From positions 1-64,000 of the forward strand of contig NZ_BMLV01000006.1 of NCBI RefSeq assembly GCF_014645495.1: a stretch of 64,000 nucleotides of DNA, given 5' to 3'. Below are positions 42,232 to 47,778 of the stretch, piece after piece. Made by a program: the position numbers and the translations under genes. How positions within the stretch are numbered: the stretch's first letter is position 1; each line of letters begins with the position of its first letter. The notes beneath the pieces are model-generated. The model was not told the origin of the DNA, made no database searches, and worked only from the letters and a program-made list of their open reading frames with translations. The DNA comes from Cloacibacterium rupense (GTDB taxonomy: Bacteria > Bacteroidota > Bacteroidia > Flavobacteriales > Weeksellaceae).

Positions 42232-42260
42232 TACCGTTAACCTATAAAACTTTAAACACC

Positions 42261-43211
42261 ATGAAAAAATTAGTATCAAGTGCTTTTGCACTATTAGCTT
42301 CAGCAACTTTATTCGCACAAGCCAACTCAGACGTTACTACACAAGTTGGAAACCTTAACTTTGCAAACGTAACCCAAGTAGGTTTTCTTAACAGTAATGT
42401 ATTAGACCAATATGGAGATGAAAACACCGCTACAGTTTCTCAAAATGGATGGTTCAATGGAAACTATGCATTACAATGGGGCAACAAAAACGAAGCCATA
42501 ATTACCCAAGTTGGTTTTGGAAATACTAATGAATCTTATTCTGTTGGAAACAGAAACAAAGTAGATGTAGACCAATTCGGAGTAGGCAATACCAGCTACA
42601 TAGACCAATTAGGAAACAGAAACAAAGCAGAAGTTGATCAAGTAGGATTCTTAAACGCTAGCGAACAATACCAAACTGGTAACAGAAACTCTGCTTCTAC
42701 AGACCAAATGGGGGTATCAAACTACAGCTATCAAATGCAAGATGGTAACGACAACACTGCAAGAGCTATTCAAGATGGAGAATCCAACTCTATTTATCAA
42801 TGGCAAACTGGAAACGACAACTTTGCTAGAGCTAAACAAACTGGAGATGGTAACTTGTCTCAACAAGAACAAATTGGTGATGACAATACCGCTAGAGTAA
42901 GACAAAATGGAGACCTCAACTATGCTGGCCAAGGTCAATATGGTGATGGTAACTTTGCTAGAGCAAGACAAGTAGGAGATAGCAACTACAGTATCCAATT
43001 ACAATATGGTTTCGACAACGAAGCTAGAGTAAGACAAGTTGGTGATGGTAACTATGCTGATCAATTCCAATGGGGAGTTGGTAACTGGGCTAAAGACATC
43101 CAATTAGGTAATGATAACTTCAGTTATGTAACTCAAATTGGTGACTTCCACTATCACCTTGGAACTCAAGTTGGTAATAGCAACACTATGTTTGTTTATC
43201 AATCTAATTAG
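42261..43211 (+). CDS. csgA: Major curlin subunit, CsgA-like
   Basis: Amyloid fibre subunit exported through CsgG. From the chosen start it has 316 residues: signal peptide ending ATLFAQ (1-20), seven residues, then 26 uninterrupted units of exactly 11 residues with the curlin pattern Q-x-G-x-x-N-x-x-x-x-x, ending in QSN. This equals thirteen 22-residue curlin repeats (E. coli CsgA has five). From unit 13 to 21 the odd-numbered units carry AR-A/V-R/K (for example DNTARVRQ), so positive charge alternates along the predicted beta solenoid. Its own strong terminator follows. The frame upstream to 42198 would include the promoter, so the start at 42261 is preferred. Confidence 0.93.
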   Translation: MKKLVSSAFALLASATLFAQANSDVTTQVGNLNFANVTQVGFLNSNVLDQYGDENTATVSQNGWFNGNYALQWGNKNEAIITQVGFGNTNESYSVGNRNKVDVDQFGVGNTSYIDQLGNRNKAEVDQVGFLNASEQYQTGNRNSASTDQMGVSNYSYQMQDGNDNTARAIQDGESNSIYQWQTGNDNFARAKQTGDGNLSQQEQIGDDNTARVRQNGDLNYAGQGQYGDGNFARARQVGDSNYSIQLQYGFDNEARVRQVGDGNYADQFQWGVGNWAKDIQLGNDNFSYVTQIGDFHYHLGTQVGNSNTMFVYQSN

Positions 43212-43324: not shown

Positions 43325-43750
43325 ATGAAAAAGATACTCATAACTGTTCTTATGCTGTTTATTGAGATATTATATTCACAAAATATAAATTTCGATACAA
43401 TAGACAGTGGTAAAACGTTGTATCTAATCTCTAATTTAGATACTAATACTTTCAATTCGCTCATTGCAGAAAAACCTCAGAATAGTTCTACTTTGCTTTT
43501 ACAAATAGGAAATGAGAATTTTGCAAGTGTAAACTTACTATATGACACTAAGATATCTTCTTTACAAAAAGGAGATCAAAACACTTTCATCTATCAAGAT
43601 TTGTTCAACACAAAATCTAACCCAGAACTTAATGTAAACGCTGTTGGAAATGGAAACTATATTGAAGTATTGGGAAGTAATAGCATTTCTGACGGAATGA
43701 CTATCAAAACGACTGGAAATGATAAAATGATTTTTGTAAGAAATTATTAA
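43325..43750 (+). CDS. Minor curlin-like protein, possible CsgB-type nucleator
   Basis: 141 residues with a signal peptide (about 1-19). The C-terminal half carries four spaced, degenerate curlin-like units: LQIGNENFASV, LQKGDQNTFIY, NAVGNGNYIEV and KTTGNDKMIFV. The spacing is irregular, unlike the major curlin. Position as first gene of the assembly operon suggests a nucleator or minor subunit like CsgB. The assignment is by these motifs and context, not by overall similarity. Confidence 0.6.
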   Translation: MKKILITVLMLFIEILYSQNINFDTIDSGKTLYLISNLDTNTFNSLIAEKPQNSSTLLLQIGNENFASVNLLYDTKISSLQKGDQNTFIYQDLFNTKSNPELNVNAVGNGNYIEVLGSNSISDGMTIKTTGNDKMIFVRNY

Positions 43751-43760
43751 TGAGAAAATC

Positions 43761-44159
43761 ATGAAAAAAATAACATTCATATTATTTTTCTTTACTATGC
43801 TTCCTGTACAACTATTTAATGCGCAAGAAATGATAGAAAACATTAAAGCTAAAATTTCTCATAAGGAGCACAATGGCTTTGTATTTATTGAGAACAATGC
43901 CATCAATGAATCAGAAATTCACTCAGAGTTAGAATATTTATTCATCAGCATTAAAAAAAACAAACAAGGCAATATTTCTTCTAACAAACAATCTGGTAAA
44001 TTTTCTCTTTCGCCGAAAAGCACTCAAAAATTATCAGAAACCACCATTAATTTAGGCCAAGATGATGAACTAAAATGCTACTTGTATTTAAAAGACGAAA
44101 CCACTAAGACACTGATTAGTAAAGATAGCCTCTTAGTAAATGTAAAAAAAAAGTCCTAG
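43761..44159 (+). CDS. CsgH/CsgC-like curli chaperone domain, probably the N-terminal part of a CsgE fusion
   Basis: 132 residues in this frame: a signal peptide (1-21) and an Ig-like beta sandwich resembling the curli-inhibiting chaperones CsgH/CsgC (LFISIKKNKQGNISSNKQSG, then SLSPKSTQKLSETTINL and ELKCYLYLKDE). The frame ends at TAG 44157 two codons after the heptamer A AAA AAG (44147-44153). A -1 shift there joins it without a gap to the CsgE domain and yields a 242-residue protein. The similarity to CsgH is weak by eye. 10 nt after the minor curlin gene. Confidence 0.65.
   Translation: MKKITFILFFFTMLPVQLFNAQEMIENIKAKISHKEHNGFVFIENNAINESEIHSELEYLFISIKKNKQGNISSNKQSGKFSLSPKSTQKLSETTINLGQDDELKCYLYLKDETTKTLISKDSLLVNVKKKS
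44144..44159 (+). other. Candidate -1 frameshift site (A9 G) with following stop codon
   Basis: Nine A (44144-44152) then G. In the zero frame the codons read GTA AAA AAA AAG TCC TAG, containing the X XXY YYZ heptamer A AAA AAG known from dnaX. I see no clear stimulatory stem after it. A homopolymer sequencing error or true indel would give the same picture. Confidence 0.55.
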
Positions 44160-44188
44160 AACCAACTGAAAACAAAGACCCAGACATA

Positions 44189-44488
44189 TTGCTCAACAAC
44201 CTTACCATAGACGAAACCAAAACTAGAGCAGGAAAAGACTTTTATGATATGTTGTATTTGAAAATTAACCAAATGGATAAAAAATATAAAAAAACCATTT
44301 CAATTATAGAACTTCCTACCATGGGTAGAAACACTCAAATACAAGTATTCTTAGAAGACAGAATGATTAACCAATTTATATTAAATCCCTCAGAGGAATT
44401 TTTAGAAGGTCAAGTTAGTTTTACGATTATGTTAATTGATGATATTTTTGCTAAAGAAGCATACATAGAAAAAGAAAAATCTTATTAA
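44189..44488 (+). CDS. csgE: CsgE-like curli assembly domain (frame -1)
   Basis: About 99 residues from TTG at 44189; the frame is open from 44129. DFYDMLYLKINQ, SIIELPTMGRNTQIQVFLEDRMI and QFILNPSEEFLEGQV match CsgE, the periplasmic protein that caps CsgG and brings CsgA to the pore. Read alone it would lack a signal peptide and start inside the first conserved strand (LLNNLT, E. coli LLTNHT), so it should be translated as the C-terminal part of a fusion with the preceding frame. 20 nt before csgF. Confidence 0.8.
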   Translation: MLNNLTIDETKTRAGKDFYDMLYLKINQMDKKYKKTISIIELPTMGRNTQIQVFLEDRMINQFILNPSEEFLEGQVSFTIMLIDDIFAKEAYIEKEKSY

Positions 44489-44508: not shown

Positions 44509-44916
44509 ATGAAAAAATTACCCACTTTAATATGCTTGCTTTTTTCATTAGCAGTATATTCTCAGCAATTTGTTTACAAACCCGTAAACCCAATGTTTGG
44601 AGGAGACACCTTCAATTATCAAATGCTATTAAGTTCTGCAAATGCTCAAAATCCCTTTGATAATAGAGAAAATGATTTGCTTAATTTAAGAGGAACCAGC
44701 ACCCTAGACAATTTTACAGATTCTCTCAATAGACAGATTTTAAGTCAATTATCTCAAAAAATCTTTCAAGAGCAATTTGGCACAGGAGAACTTAAACCCG
44801 GAACTTACAATTTTGGCTCCTTGTACATTGAAATCACCAGTGTTACTGGAGGCCTCTATGTGAACATCCTGAATACCAGTACTGGAGAACAATCAGAAAT
44901 CTTTATACCGCAATAA
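44509..44916 (+). CDS. csgF: Curli assembly protein CsgF
   Basis: 135 residues with a signal peptide (1-18). The mature start QFVYKPVNPMFGGD ... LLSSANAQNPF is the CsgF region that inserts in the CsgG channel; STLDNFTDSLNRQILSQL and the C-terminal strand pair GGLYVNILNTSTGEQSEIFI are typical. In curli systems CsgF couples the secretion pore to surface nucleation. One nucleotide before csgG. Confidence 0.93.
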   Translation: MKKLPTLICLLFSLAVYSQQFVYKPVNPMFGGDTFNYQMLLSSANAQNPFDNRENDLLNLRGTSTLDNFTDSLNRQILSQLSQKIFQEQFGTGELKPGTYNFGSLYIEITSVTGGLYVNILNTSTGEQSEIFIPQ

Positions 44917-44917
44917 T

Positions 44918-46276
44918 ATGAAATGGTTACAAGTCATCTTACTATCCGCAGTAGCCATTTTGCTCAGCAATTGTGCTACATTATTGAAAATCCCTAATGG
45001 TAATTCTGCCCCGCAAATGGGCGAAAAAACCAATTTACAATTCAAGATTAAAAAACTACCACCCCCAAAAGAAAAAATTGTAGTTGGGGTATATAAGTTT
45101 AGAGACCAAACCGGACAATACAAACCCACAGAAAATGGAAGCAGTTTCAGCACCGCCATTCCTCAGGGGATTACTTCTATACTTATCAAAGCTTTAGAAG
45201 ATAGCGATTGGTTTATCCCAATTGAAAGAGAAAATGTCTCTAACCTATTGAATGAAAGACAAATTATAAGAACAACCAAACAAGAATATGCCCAAAGCAA
45301 TAACAAAAACAACAATCAACCTCTTCCACCATTATTGTTTGCTGGGGTTTTGCTAGAAGGAGGGGTAATTTCTTATGATACCAATGTAATGACTGGCGGA
45401 TTGGGTGCTAGATACTTTGGAATAGGCGCTTCTACACAATACAGACAAGACAGAATTTCGGTTTACTTAAGAGCTGTATCTACCCTCAACGGAAAAATTT
45501 TAAAATCTGTATACGTAGACAAAACCATACTTTCTACTACAGTAAATGGTAGCATTTTTAAATATGTAGATACAGAAAGATTACTAGAATCAGAAATTGG
45601 AATTACCCAAAACGAACCTGTCCAAATTGCCGTAAAACAAGCGATAGAAAAAGCAGTGCAAGCACTAATTATTGATGGTATTCAAGATAAAATTTGGGAA
45701 CCAGACCCTAAATACACCAAGGATACCGAAGCTGCCATCAATGCAATAAAAGAAGAACAAAAACAAGTAGATTTCTTAGCCGAAAAAGCGAAATATTACG
45801 ATGTAAAAGGAAAACACTATTCTGTTTTTGGAATGGCAGAAGCCAATGCTATACAAGGTGATTATGAATCTCCAGTACTAACTCCTGGAGTGAGATTTGG
45901 CGTTAAATATCACCTGAATAGATTTTGGAACATCAATCTCAGTTCTGCATTTATGACCTTAGAAAACAAAGAGATTATCAGAAAAAGGTATCAAGCAACT
46001 GACCTTAATATAGAATACCTGATGCTTCCTGCCAATAAATTCTCTCCATTCATTTTCGCTGGAGGTGGTTTTATTGCCAATAGAGAACCTCTAAAATTCA
46101 AATATCAACTTGGAGGAGGCTTTGAATATTTTATAAAAGATTTTTCGTTTAGGCTTCAAGGCCAATACGATTTGGGCTTTGATGATGATTGGGACGATTT
46201 TGTGAATGGAGATTTGAATGATAGAGCTCTAAGAATAGGTTTTGGAATATCTTACCATTTCAGAAAAAAACAATAA
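44918..46276 (+). CDS. csgG: CsgG curli secretion pore lipoprotein with C-terminal barrel-like extension
   Basis: 452 residues. Lipoprotein signal with LLSNC (Cys19). The CsgG domain spans about 45-275: GVYKFRDQTGQYKP, TAIPQGITSILIKALEDSDWFIPIERE, the LLEGGVISYDTN and GIGASTQYRQDRISVYLRAV strands of the pore hairpins and the helix AVKQAIEKAVQALI. E. coli CsgG ends there (277 residues). Here about 175 more residues follow: a short charged linker and alternating amphipathic strands ending in SYHFRKKQ, as in OmpA/OmpX-like outer-membrane barrels. The nonameric pore could therefore carry nine accessory barrels; that is inference. Operon position is between csgF and the propeller lipoprotein. Confidence 0.93.
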   Translation: MKWLQVILLSAVAILLSNCATLLKIPNGNSAPQMGEKTNLQFKIKKLPPPKEKIVVGVYKFRDQTGQYKPTENGSSFSTAIPQGITSILIKALEDSDWFIPIERENVSNLLNERQIIRTTKQEYAQSNNKNNNQPLPPLLFAGVLLEGGVISYDTNVMTGGLGARYFGIGASTQYRQDRISVYLRAVSTLNGKILKSVYVDKTILSTTVNGSIFKYVDTERLLESEIGITQNEPVQIAVKQAIEKAVQALIIDGIQDKIWEPDPKYTKDTEAAINAIKEEQKQVDFLAEKAKYYDVKGKHYSVFGMAEANAIQGDYESPVLTPGVRFGVKYHLNRFWNINLSSAFMTLENKEIIRKRYQATDLNIEYLMLPANKFSPFIFAGGGFIANREPLKFKYQLGGGFEYFIKDFSFRLQGQYDLGFDDDWDDFVNGDLNDRALRIGFGISYHFRKKQ

Positions 46277-46278
46277 CT

Positions 46279-47778
46279 ATGAAAAATTTATTAAAAATAA
46301 TCGCCCTTTTTATACTTACTTTAAGCCTAATTTCTTGTAGAGAAGAATTGGTAGCAAAAAGTAAAACAGCAACCATAAAAGGAATGATCACCAGCAAAGA
46401 ATCAGGCGTGCCTCTTTCTAAAGTAAAAGTCTCTACCGCACCAATCACAGAAACTGTCTTTACAGATGATAGTGGAAATTTTGAAATCAAAAACATCCCA
46501 TTAGGAGATTATTCTTTAAAAGCAGAATTAGATGGGTATGTTACTAAAGCTGTAGGCATTTCTGTTAAAAACGAGGGACAAGTCAACTCTATGACCATTG
46601 AATTGGTAGATGACCTATCTCTTAACTCCCCCCCTAGTGTTCCTGAATTGGTTACTCCAGCAGATAACTCAACCAATCAACCATTAAATATTAACTTTAC
46701 ATGGAATTGTACTGATGCTGACACTAAAGACATCTTAAAATTTAATCTTGTTGTAAAAAACAGTTCAAATAATGATGTTATCGAAATAAAAGATATTACA
46801 GCAAAAAATTATGAACTAAAAAATCTAAAATATGGTTACACCTATTTCTGGCAAATTATTGCCAATGATGGCGTAAATAATGCTGTATATAGTTCTACTA
46901 ACAAATTTACAACCACCAATTCGCCTCTTAATAGATTCCATTATGTACAAAATAACAACGGAGTATTTACATTAGTTTCTAACAATCTAGAGAATAACAA
47001 TCTATTCAACCTTCACGAGAATGCTTGGAGACCAAGAAAAAATAACAATGCTAATCTTTTAGCCTACCTTAAAAACGTTGGCGGAGACATTCATATATTT
47101 AGCAGTAAATTAGATGGCTCTTCTGAATTTAAAATAACTAAAATACCTATTGCAGGATTCAATGCCAAAGAAATAGACTATTCTTGGAATCAGAAAGGAA
47201 CCCAAATTATCTATGCTAACTTTGACAAACTATACAAAGTAAACAAAGATGGTACTGGAACTACACTCCTATATACTGCCCCTTCTGGAGAGTTTATCAC
47301 AGAATGCGACTGGAGTTATGACGAATCTAAAATTGCCATTAAAACCAATAACCTTAGCGGATATAATGGAAATATTAGAATTATAAACATGGTAGGAAAT
47401 ATTCTAAATACCGTAGTTACAAATAGTACAGGTGCTTTAGGTGGAATTAATTTTTCTGTAGATGGCAAAAAACTCTTGTATTGCAAAGACATTTCTAACT
47501 ACCAAGACCAAAATTACAGACAACTAGACACTCATATTTTCTTGTATGACATTGTTGCTGCTACTTCTACAGATTTGTCAGAACTTAGTAAAAAACCTAT
47601 TGGAAGCAATGACCTTGACCCTAGATTTTCTCCAAATAATGCAGAAATAATCTTTACCAATACTTCTAATGATGGAATATCCCAGAAAAATGTGATGAAA
47701 ATAACCTTAGATTTTTCTCTACAAAGCTTACAAAGAACTACCCTATTTATCAATGCAGAAATGCCAGATTGGCAATAA
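46279..47778 (+). CDS. Curli-operon lipoprotein: CarboxypepD_reg, FN3-like and propeller regions
   Basis: 499 residues. Lipoprotein signal TLSLISC (Cys20). A carboxypeptidase-regulatory-like sandwich (about 33-110: GMITSKESGVPLSKVKV, FEIKNIPLGDYSLKAELDGY), an FN3-type module (about 115-215), then a TolB/WD40-like propeller (about 225-499: GSSEFKITKIPI, LYKVNKDGTGTTLLYTAPSG, PRFSPNNAEIIFTN). Two nt after csgG, so co-expressed. It has no counterpart in the E. coli csg operons and may anchor or bind fibres at the surface. The FN3-like module resembles those of the lipoprotein at 56041. Confidence 0.78.
   Translation: MKNLLKIIALFILTLSLISCREELVAKSKTATIKGMITSKESGVPLSKVKVSTAPITETVFTDDSGNFEIKNIPLGDYSLKAELDGYVTKAVGISVKNEGQVNSMTIELVDDLSLNSPPSVPELVTPADNSTNQPLNINFTWNCTDADTKDILKFNLVVKNSSNNDVIEIKDITAKNYELKNLKYGYTYFWQIIANDGVNNAVYSSTNKFTTTNSPLNRFHYVQNNNGVFTLVSNNLENNNLFNLHENAWRPRKNNNANLLAYLKNVGGDIHIFSSKLDGSSEFKITKIPIAGFNAKEIDYSWNQKGTQIIYANFDKLYKVNKDGTGTTLLYTAPSGEFITECDWSYDESKIAIKTNNLSGYNGNIRIINMVGNILNTVVTNSTGALGGINFSVDGKKLLYCKDISNYQDQNYRQLDTHIFLYDIVAATSTDLSELSKKPIGSNDLDPRFSPNNAEIIFTNTSNDGISQKNVMKITLDFSLQSLQRTTLFINAEMPDWQ

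Follow-up and report, generated by a model that had tools for sequence, protein, structure and literature searches.

The csgH-csgE gene in the curli operon of Cloacibacterium rupense is divided between two reading frames that meet at a poly-A run, and the division does not look accidental. Programmed slippage at this run is the probable explanation, with RNA polymerase rather than the ribosome as the machine that slips, and it would yield two products from one gene: a free CsgH-like protein and a CsgH-CsgE fusion. Judged by comparison across genomes, the two frames recur in several lineages, the run and the stop behind it are conserved, and both coding parts appear to be under constraint.

The gene lies on the plus strand at positions 43761–44488 of the window, by which we mean the whole stretch of 64,000 nucleotides that was analysed. 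An earlier note made from the letters alone had described two overlapping frames here, and the sequence bears out its coordinates. The first frame, 43761–44159, encodes a CsgH-like protein of 132 residues, the unslipped product, which consists of a hydrophobic leader (recognised by eye) and a seven-stranded domain and ends at a TAG at 44157–44159. The second, 44129–44488, is open for CsgE in the −1 register (phase −1 below), with its stop at 44486–44488 and a match to PF10627 at residues 23–109. The frames overlap at a run of exactly nine A (44144–44152) followed by a G at 44153, as the same note had seen; this slip site (44144–44153) includes the heptamer A AAA AAG, whose register is that of the first frame. 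Across the junction the first frame reads GTA AAA AAA AAG TCC TAG, so that the stop begins five bases past the last A of the run.

The CsgE frame is one base behind the CsgH-like frame, and the two are linked only by a −1 shift at the nine A and the G. Such a shift joins 128 residues, KKK and 111 residues, which agrees with the continuous 242-residue protein that had been predicted, and the residues of the CsgE frame after the slip make up the C-terminal part of that fusion. The accompanying rule that eight or eleven A would restore one frame proved wrong. Because the CsgE frame is one base behind, a run with one extra A reads through, and relatives with eleven A are in frame beside sisters with ten A in phase −1.

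The heptamer A AAA AAG is by itself unremarkable in the window, with four in-frame copies in 40 ORFs (CsgE gene excluded) against 5.8 expected. Runs of nine A occur at six places on the two strands, two of them overlapping, against 29.9 expected. Such runs are thus rarer than expected, and other species carry the break at the homologous position, which places the junction beyond chance.

CsgE could instead be started separately inside the overlap and function without the CsgH part. Among 45 phase −1 genomes, 11 have an ATG, GTG or TTG ahead of the domain in the CsgE frame, an ATG in only four of these, and the other 34 have no such codon there. In the window, the claim that the CsgE frame has no ATG ahead of its domain was correct; the only possible start, and the earliest, is the TTG at 44189. 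The stretch is also too short for a signal peptide, yet CsgE acts in the periplasm (PMC6050966, excerpt), and we regard a separate start as highly improbable.

Both domains were recognised, with different degrees of ease. The CsgE part passes its family threshold (PF10627, 39.6 bits, cut-off 25) and is the sole CsgE match in the genome. The CsgH-like part has no Pfam family in a Pfam search; against NCBIfam NF041112 it reaches E 1.6e-8 and 34.5 bits, just below the curated score of 35, and all 33 members of our alignment match NF041112 at E up to 0.001. An AlphaFold2 model of the 132-residue product, made with 33 sequences, is a seven-stranded sandwich (pLDDT 86.7) in which the last strand ends at residue 126, ahead of the slip codons 129–131. 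As modelled, the short product is predicted to be the whole domain, with the immunoglobulin-like fold of CsgC and CsgH: Foldseek ranked CsgH (2n59, TM by target 0.69) first and CsgC (2xsk, 0.83) second. In a profile search of the PDB, CsgC came up at no better than E 0.026, and the matches behind it were unrelated and due to chance. CsgH has been defined by two distant cysteines (PMC4838910, excerpt). The window protein has one cysteine, and because the two defining cysteines are absent we write "CsgH-like." The model of a fused, in-frame relative was only fair (mean pLDDT 71.6, pTM 0.43), and Foldseek placed an unrelated protein first, CsgH second and CsgC fifth; the lysines fall within residues 126–144, a region of low confidence with a folded part on either side.

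The surroundings are those of a curli operon, all on the plus strand, in the order curlin-repeat gene, small ORF, csgH-csgE gene, csgF and csgG. The curlin-repeat protein, of CsgA/B type, is encoded at 42258–43211 (PF07012, 140.9 bits; start set at the inner ATG 42258), csgF at 44509–44916 (PF10614, 129.4 bits) and csgG, with 452 residues, at 44918–46276 (PF03783, 227.6 bits). The small ORF directly upstream of csgH (43325–43750) encodes a secreted-looking protein with no Pfam family; it contains GNxN-like stretches and is possibly a minor curli subunit. Past its CsgG domain, the C-terminal part of csgG has a weak match to the outer-membrane barrel PF13505 (E 5.9e-4, below the cut-off), and three bases past csgG there is an ORF (46279–47778) with a carboxypeptidase-regulatory-like domain (PF13620).

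Within the genus of the window, CsgE was found in three of seven genomes, its own included, and all three carry the same frame break. The other two copies, which are nearly identical to each other, have ten A followed by C, and their CsgE is 70% identical to that of the window. The four remaining genomes (G002, G004, G005, G006) have no CsgE match at E 0.001, and curli secretion seems patchy in the genus. In the family, 157 of 320 genomes match the CsgE search and, among the matches listed, all but six have one open frame of 243–286 aa, which fits the size of a CsgH-CsgE fusion. The six exceptions among these listed matches are the three genomes of the window's genus, a genome taken to be Halpernia frigidisoli (G242), a contig-edge fragment (G295) and G036. 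The Halpernia junction reads GAA AAA AAA AAG TAA, with ten A and CsgE in the −1 frame. In G036 (L032), which is Chryseobacterium-like, the frame break lies inside the CsgH part, far from long A runs, and has the look of a chance break. A class-wide search gave 12 matches in 395 genomes, of which the eight outside the order are all in one open frame, as is CsgH-CsgE in most other relatives seen.

In an evenly drawn sample of Flavobacterium, 93 of 398 genomes have CsgE, 41 of them as a short frame (112–129 aa) and 52 in a single open frame (241–278 aa). Phases were called with HMMs from fused proteins for the 71 of 93 loci that were fetched, the other 22 being single open frames of 242–278 aa by table. 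Forty of the 41 short-frame genes are in phase −1 and one is in phase +1 (G1010, twelve A); all 30 of the 30 fetched single-frame genes are in phase 0.

Genomes of named species were then covered by a DNA-pattern scan; a first contig scan with the CsgE protein had found no relative. The pattern returned 61 stretches, 60 of them with CsgE (a match in Helicobacter cholecystus, L141, lacked CsgE). Because the pattern requires a run of nine or more A, the split of 43 records in phase −1 to 17 in frame is not a prevalence, for which the 40 of 93 in the Flavobacterium survey should be taken, and some of these genomes overlap with that first set. All 43 records in phase −1 have ten A, and the 17 in-frame records have nine to eleven. 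The former include F. johnsoniae CI04, F. hibernum, F. pectinovorum, F. frigoris and two chromosome-titled records (L153, L181). Among these 43 loci, csgF is present in 40 and csgG in 37; the six without csgG have at most 596 bases available downstream. Sequence comparison confirms the break as a conserved feature of many species, with dozens of relatives among them.

We placed these states on a protein tree built from the CsgH and CsgE stretches, with the linker omitted. Five duplicate genomes (L051, L055, L057, L058, L061) were removed before counting, as were L034 and L054 (contig-edge fragment; weak CsgH part), and L032, with its break inside the CsgH part, was counted as in frame. The tree has 121 genomes, with 45 in phase −1, 75 in frame and one in +1, so the earlier note's question of whether relatives conserve the frame break has a positive answer. 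The run has ten A in 44 of the 45 and nine in one, the window. The −1 state needs eight changes on this tree, seven of them forced by well-supported branches. In our reading there were separate gains in the window's genus, in Halpernia, in a large Flavobacterium clade and in G855; their number is unsure, since long branches, including that of Halpernia, were flagged when the tree was built. We also read returns to frame inside the large Flavobacterium clade with the run kept: L060 has eleven A and is in frame, against ten A and phase −1 in its sister L090, and L092 and L097 keep ten A with one extra base after the run.

Two further patterns were seen among the junctions. The sisters L101 (G1010) and L100 (G857) have twelve A in phase +1 and ten A in phase −1, respectively, the former being the only +1 case in the 121. 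At almost the same linker position, some Chryseobacterium genes (L010, L013, L019, L023, L025, L161, L189 and similar ones) carry an in-frame run of nine or ten A, and in L020, L021 and L029, sisters of such genes, the run is interrupted by AAG. Such runs may be the device in its in-frame form, or they may reflect drift.

Differences of one or two A between sisters, as in L060 and L090 or L101 and L100, are also what phase variation would produce, with replication slippage changing the run length in DNA and switching CsgE on or off between cells. However, the length is nearly constant, at ten A in 44 of the 45 phase −1 genomes, and the placement of the stop is selected (see below). Random switching also predicts both phases, and only one genome is +1. 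We consider phase variation very unlikely.

Among pairs more than 70% identical, the only ones used, dN/dS of CsgE was 0.046 in phase −1 (156 pairs) against 0.049 in frame (83 pairs). Between the window and its genus relatives, dS is saturated. Unfiltered values were set aside: those for in-frame genes (0.47 for the CsgH part, 0.46 for the CsgE part) were attributed to saturated distant pairs, and those for −1 genes (0.133 and 0.093, respectively) were replaced by the identity-filtered pairs. This purifying selection on CsgE, together with the presence of csgF and csgG, speaks against a decaying pseudogene. As for a sequencing or assembly error, homopolymers are error-prone and one missing A would explain a single case, but the same offset and run appear in many separate assemblies, including the chromosome-titled L153 and L181. 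The earlier note had kept a chance indel or sequencing error as its alternative; because the break recurs in 45 of the 121 genomes of the tree, this is very unlikely, and we give error or decay almost no weight.

The stop behind the run is also telling. In −1 genes, a close stop follows the run in 24 of 25 thinned junctions against 18.2 expected, with as many in 0 of 1000 synonymous shuffles, and in 51 of 52 distinct junctions against 36.8 expected (0 of 300 shuffles); in these and the following counts, row numbers are inflated by relatedness and the synonymous shuffles ignore kinship. Among in-frame genes with at least nine A, stops are likewise in excess in the frame that loss of one A brings in (thinned, 12 of 12 against 7.0 expected, 0 of 1000 shuffles; distinct junctions, 19 of 20 against 11.3 expected, 0 of 300 shuffles). 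For the second shifted frame of these genes there was no stop excess in the thinned set (9 of 12 against 8.7 expected), nor was there one in in-frame genes without such a run (13 of 39 thinned against 13.6; 23 of 60 distinct against 20.1). In the in-frame Flavobacterium genes, part of the excess may be left over from a −1 ancestor. Both products look to be under selection, and comparison across genomes lends strong support to the proposal of a functional change of frame that yields free CsgH together with a CsgH-CsgE fusion.

Several features of the run point to the polymerase. A conserved length of about nine or more A among homologues has been used as a criterion for transcriptional slippage (PMC1088944, excerpt), and the −1 genomes have ten A in 44 of 45 cases and nine in the window; ten A were also taken as a transcriptional slippage signal in dnaX (PMC3711429, excerpt). 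In Flavobacterium, ten A and a G are invariant in 41 of 41 −1 rows, a run longer than the heptamer needs. The ten, eleven and twelve A found in sister genomes are likewise counted in favour of the polymerase. Runs of at least nine A are avoided in the neighbouring genes (three seen against 31.7 expected in 288 genes), where in-frame A_AAA_AAG shows no avoidance (32 seen against 21.6 expected), although neither count is independent because many of these are homologous operon genes. The genes of the window hold two such runs against 9.9 expected. Avoidance of long A runs can also be explained by replication slippage.

The earlier note had proposed a dnaX-type event, that is, programmed −1 ribosomal frameshifting at A AAA AAG, which could act alone or together with polymerase slippage. 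Of 88 phase −1 rows, 86 keep the heptamer in register and two have A AAA AAA instead, and 45 of the 46 out-of-frame genomes are shifted in the −1 direction. In 28 of 29 thinned junctions the base after the run is G, as would suit shifting at AAG, compared with 147 of 353 other linker codons that start with G. The tRNA-Lys was typed only as UUU, in two genes (35 of 37 tRNA matches typed), and in E. coli few motifs are as prone to shifting as A_AA.A_AA.G (PMC4066793, excerpt). However, the same excerpt gives the motif about 0.3% in E. coli without stimulators, and at most about 3.7% in a good context. Folding energy of the downstream 70 nt shows no excess structure (mean z −0.99, n = 30, against −0.72 in controls, n = 42; window, +0.82), and the codons upstream of the run vary among junctions. 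Strong folding past the run is, however, seen in some individual sequences (L063, z −2.39). Ten A exceed what the motif needs, two of the three copies in the window's genus have no AAG codon at the run, which ends with C, and ribosomal shifting leaves unexplained the long-run in-frame genes with their stop excess and the +1 gene with twelve A (L101, one genome).

The heptamer and its register have held up, and ribosomal shifting stays a credible alternative as the mechanism, though a less likely one. Slippage by RNA polymerase is favoured because of the long conserved run, the lack of excess downstream structure in folding energy, the avoidance of A runs and the copies without AAG. We judge it about three times as likely as ribosomal shifting, a share of which may contribute.

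Known systems offer several comparisons. Escherichia coli dnaX likewise has an in-register A AAA AAG where two domains meet, and makes two products. There the ribosome shifts with the help of upstream and downstream stimulators; at csgH-csgE, such stimulators were not found in folding energy or upstream codons, and the A run is longer. Another comparison is the dnaX of Thermus thermophilus, with other two-ORF dnaX genes that have ten A (PMC1088944, PMC5009743, PMC3711429, excerpts): as far as those excerpts go, they share a run of nine or ten A, nearby stops in the slipped frames and a defined ratio between two products. Thermus dnaX differs in encoding a replication protein, in belonging to another phylum and in that slippage was measured there.

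In two type VI secretion genes, tssM1 of Citrobacter rodentium and tssM3 of Yersinia pseudotuberculosis, a poly-A run gives two length variants (PMC4256274, excerpt). According to this excerpt, slippage makes the long form in tssM1 (11 A) and the short form in tssM3, and it was demonstrated by cDNA mass spectrometry, reporters and secretion assays. These are the same two arrangements as in the −1 and in-frame csgH-csgE genes, respectively, and both cases concern genes of secretion systems. The protein family and system are different, however, the csgH-csgE case is known from sequence comparison alone, and its run, unlike that of tssM, separates two whole known domains. Likeness to known curli systems is seen in the two domains, recognised by sequence or fold, and in the adjoining curlin-repeat, csgF and csgG genes. 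In those systems, CsgC/CsgH and CsgE are separate proteins (PMC4838910, PMC5135000, PMC3521004, excerpts), whereas here the CsgH-like and CsgE parts belong to a single gene, which is one continuous frame in most relatives seen and is divided, apparently through slippage, in the −1 species.

We propose the following working. Unslipped messages would terminate just past the run and give the complete, exported, free CsgH-like protein of 132 residues, presumed to be an amyloid inhibitor. Slipping of RNA polymerase would leave a fraction of messages with an A run unlike that of the DNA, putting CsgE in frame. These would encode an exported CsgH-CsgE fusion of 242 residues, the only evident source of periplasmic CsgE in the genome, and the fusion would carry the sole signal peptide that CsgE can use. 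How often slippage occurs would determine how much free inhibitor is made relative to secretion adaptor, the presumed role of CsgE here. CsgE caps the CsgG pore, and CsgC inhibits CsgA far below equal amounts, where CsgE needs equal amounts (PMC6050966, PMC5135000, excerpts); we infer that the ratio of the two products matters and is regulated.

A wider reading, to which we give even chances, is that the run of A between the CsgH and CsgE parts serves amyloid secretion as an evolvable device for setting their ratio, acquired repeatedly. Slight shifts of phase in the DNA would flip the default product between free inhibitor and fused adaptor, and polymerase slippage would supply the other. Our literature search, which covered titles, abstract openings and passages from listings of at most 20 papers each in a library with few subscription journals, found no report of recoding in the curli (type VIII) system. 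If the reading is true, this would be, as far as searched, the first recoding described there and a widely conserved cellular case in functional-amyloid secretion, joining a short list that includes dnaX, tssM, Shigella genes and insertion sequences. It also carries a warning for annotation, as many Flavobacterium csgE genes look truncated or frameshifted in DNA yet are under full purifying selection. For the biology of these bacteria, it offers a testable account of how an amyloid inhibitor and an export adaptor could stay in proportion from one gene.
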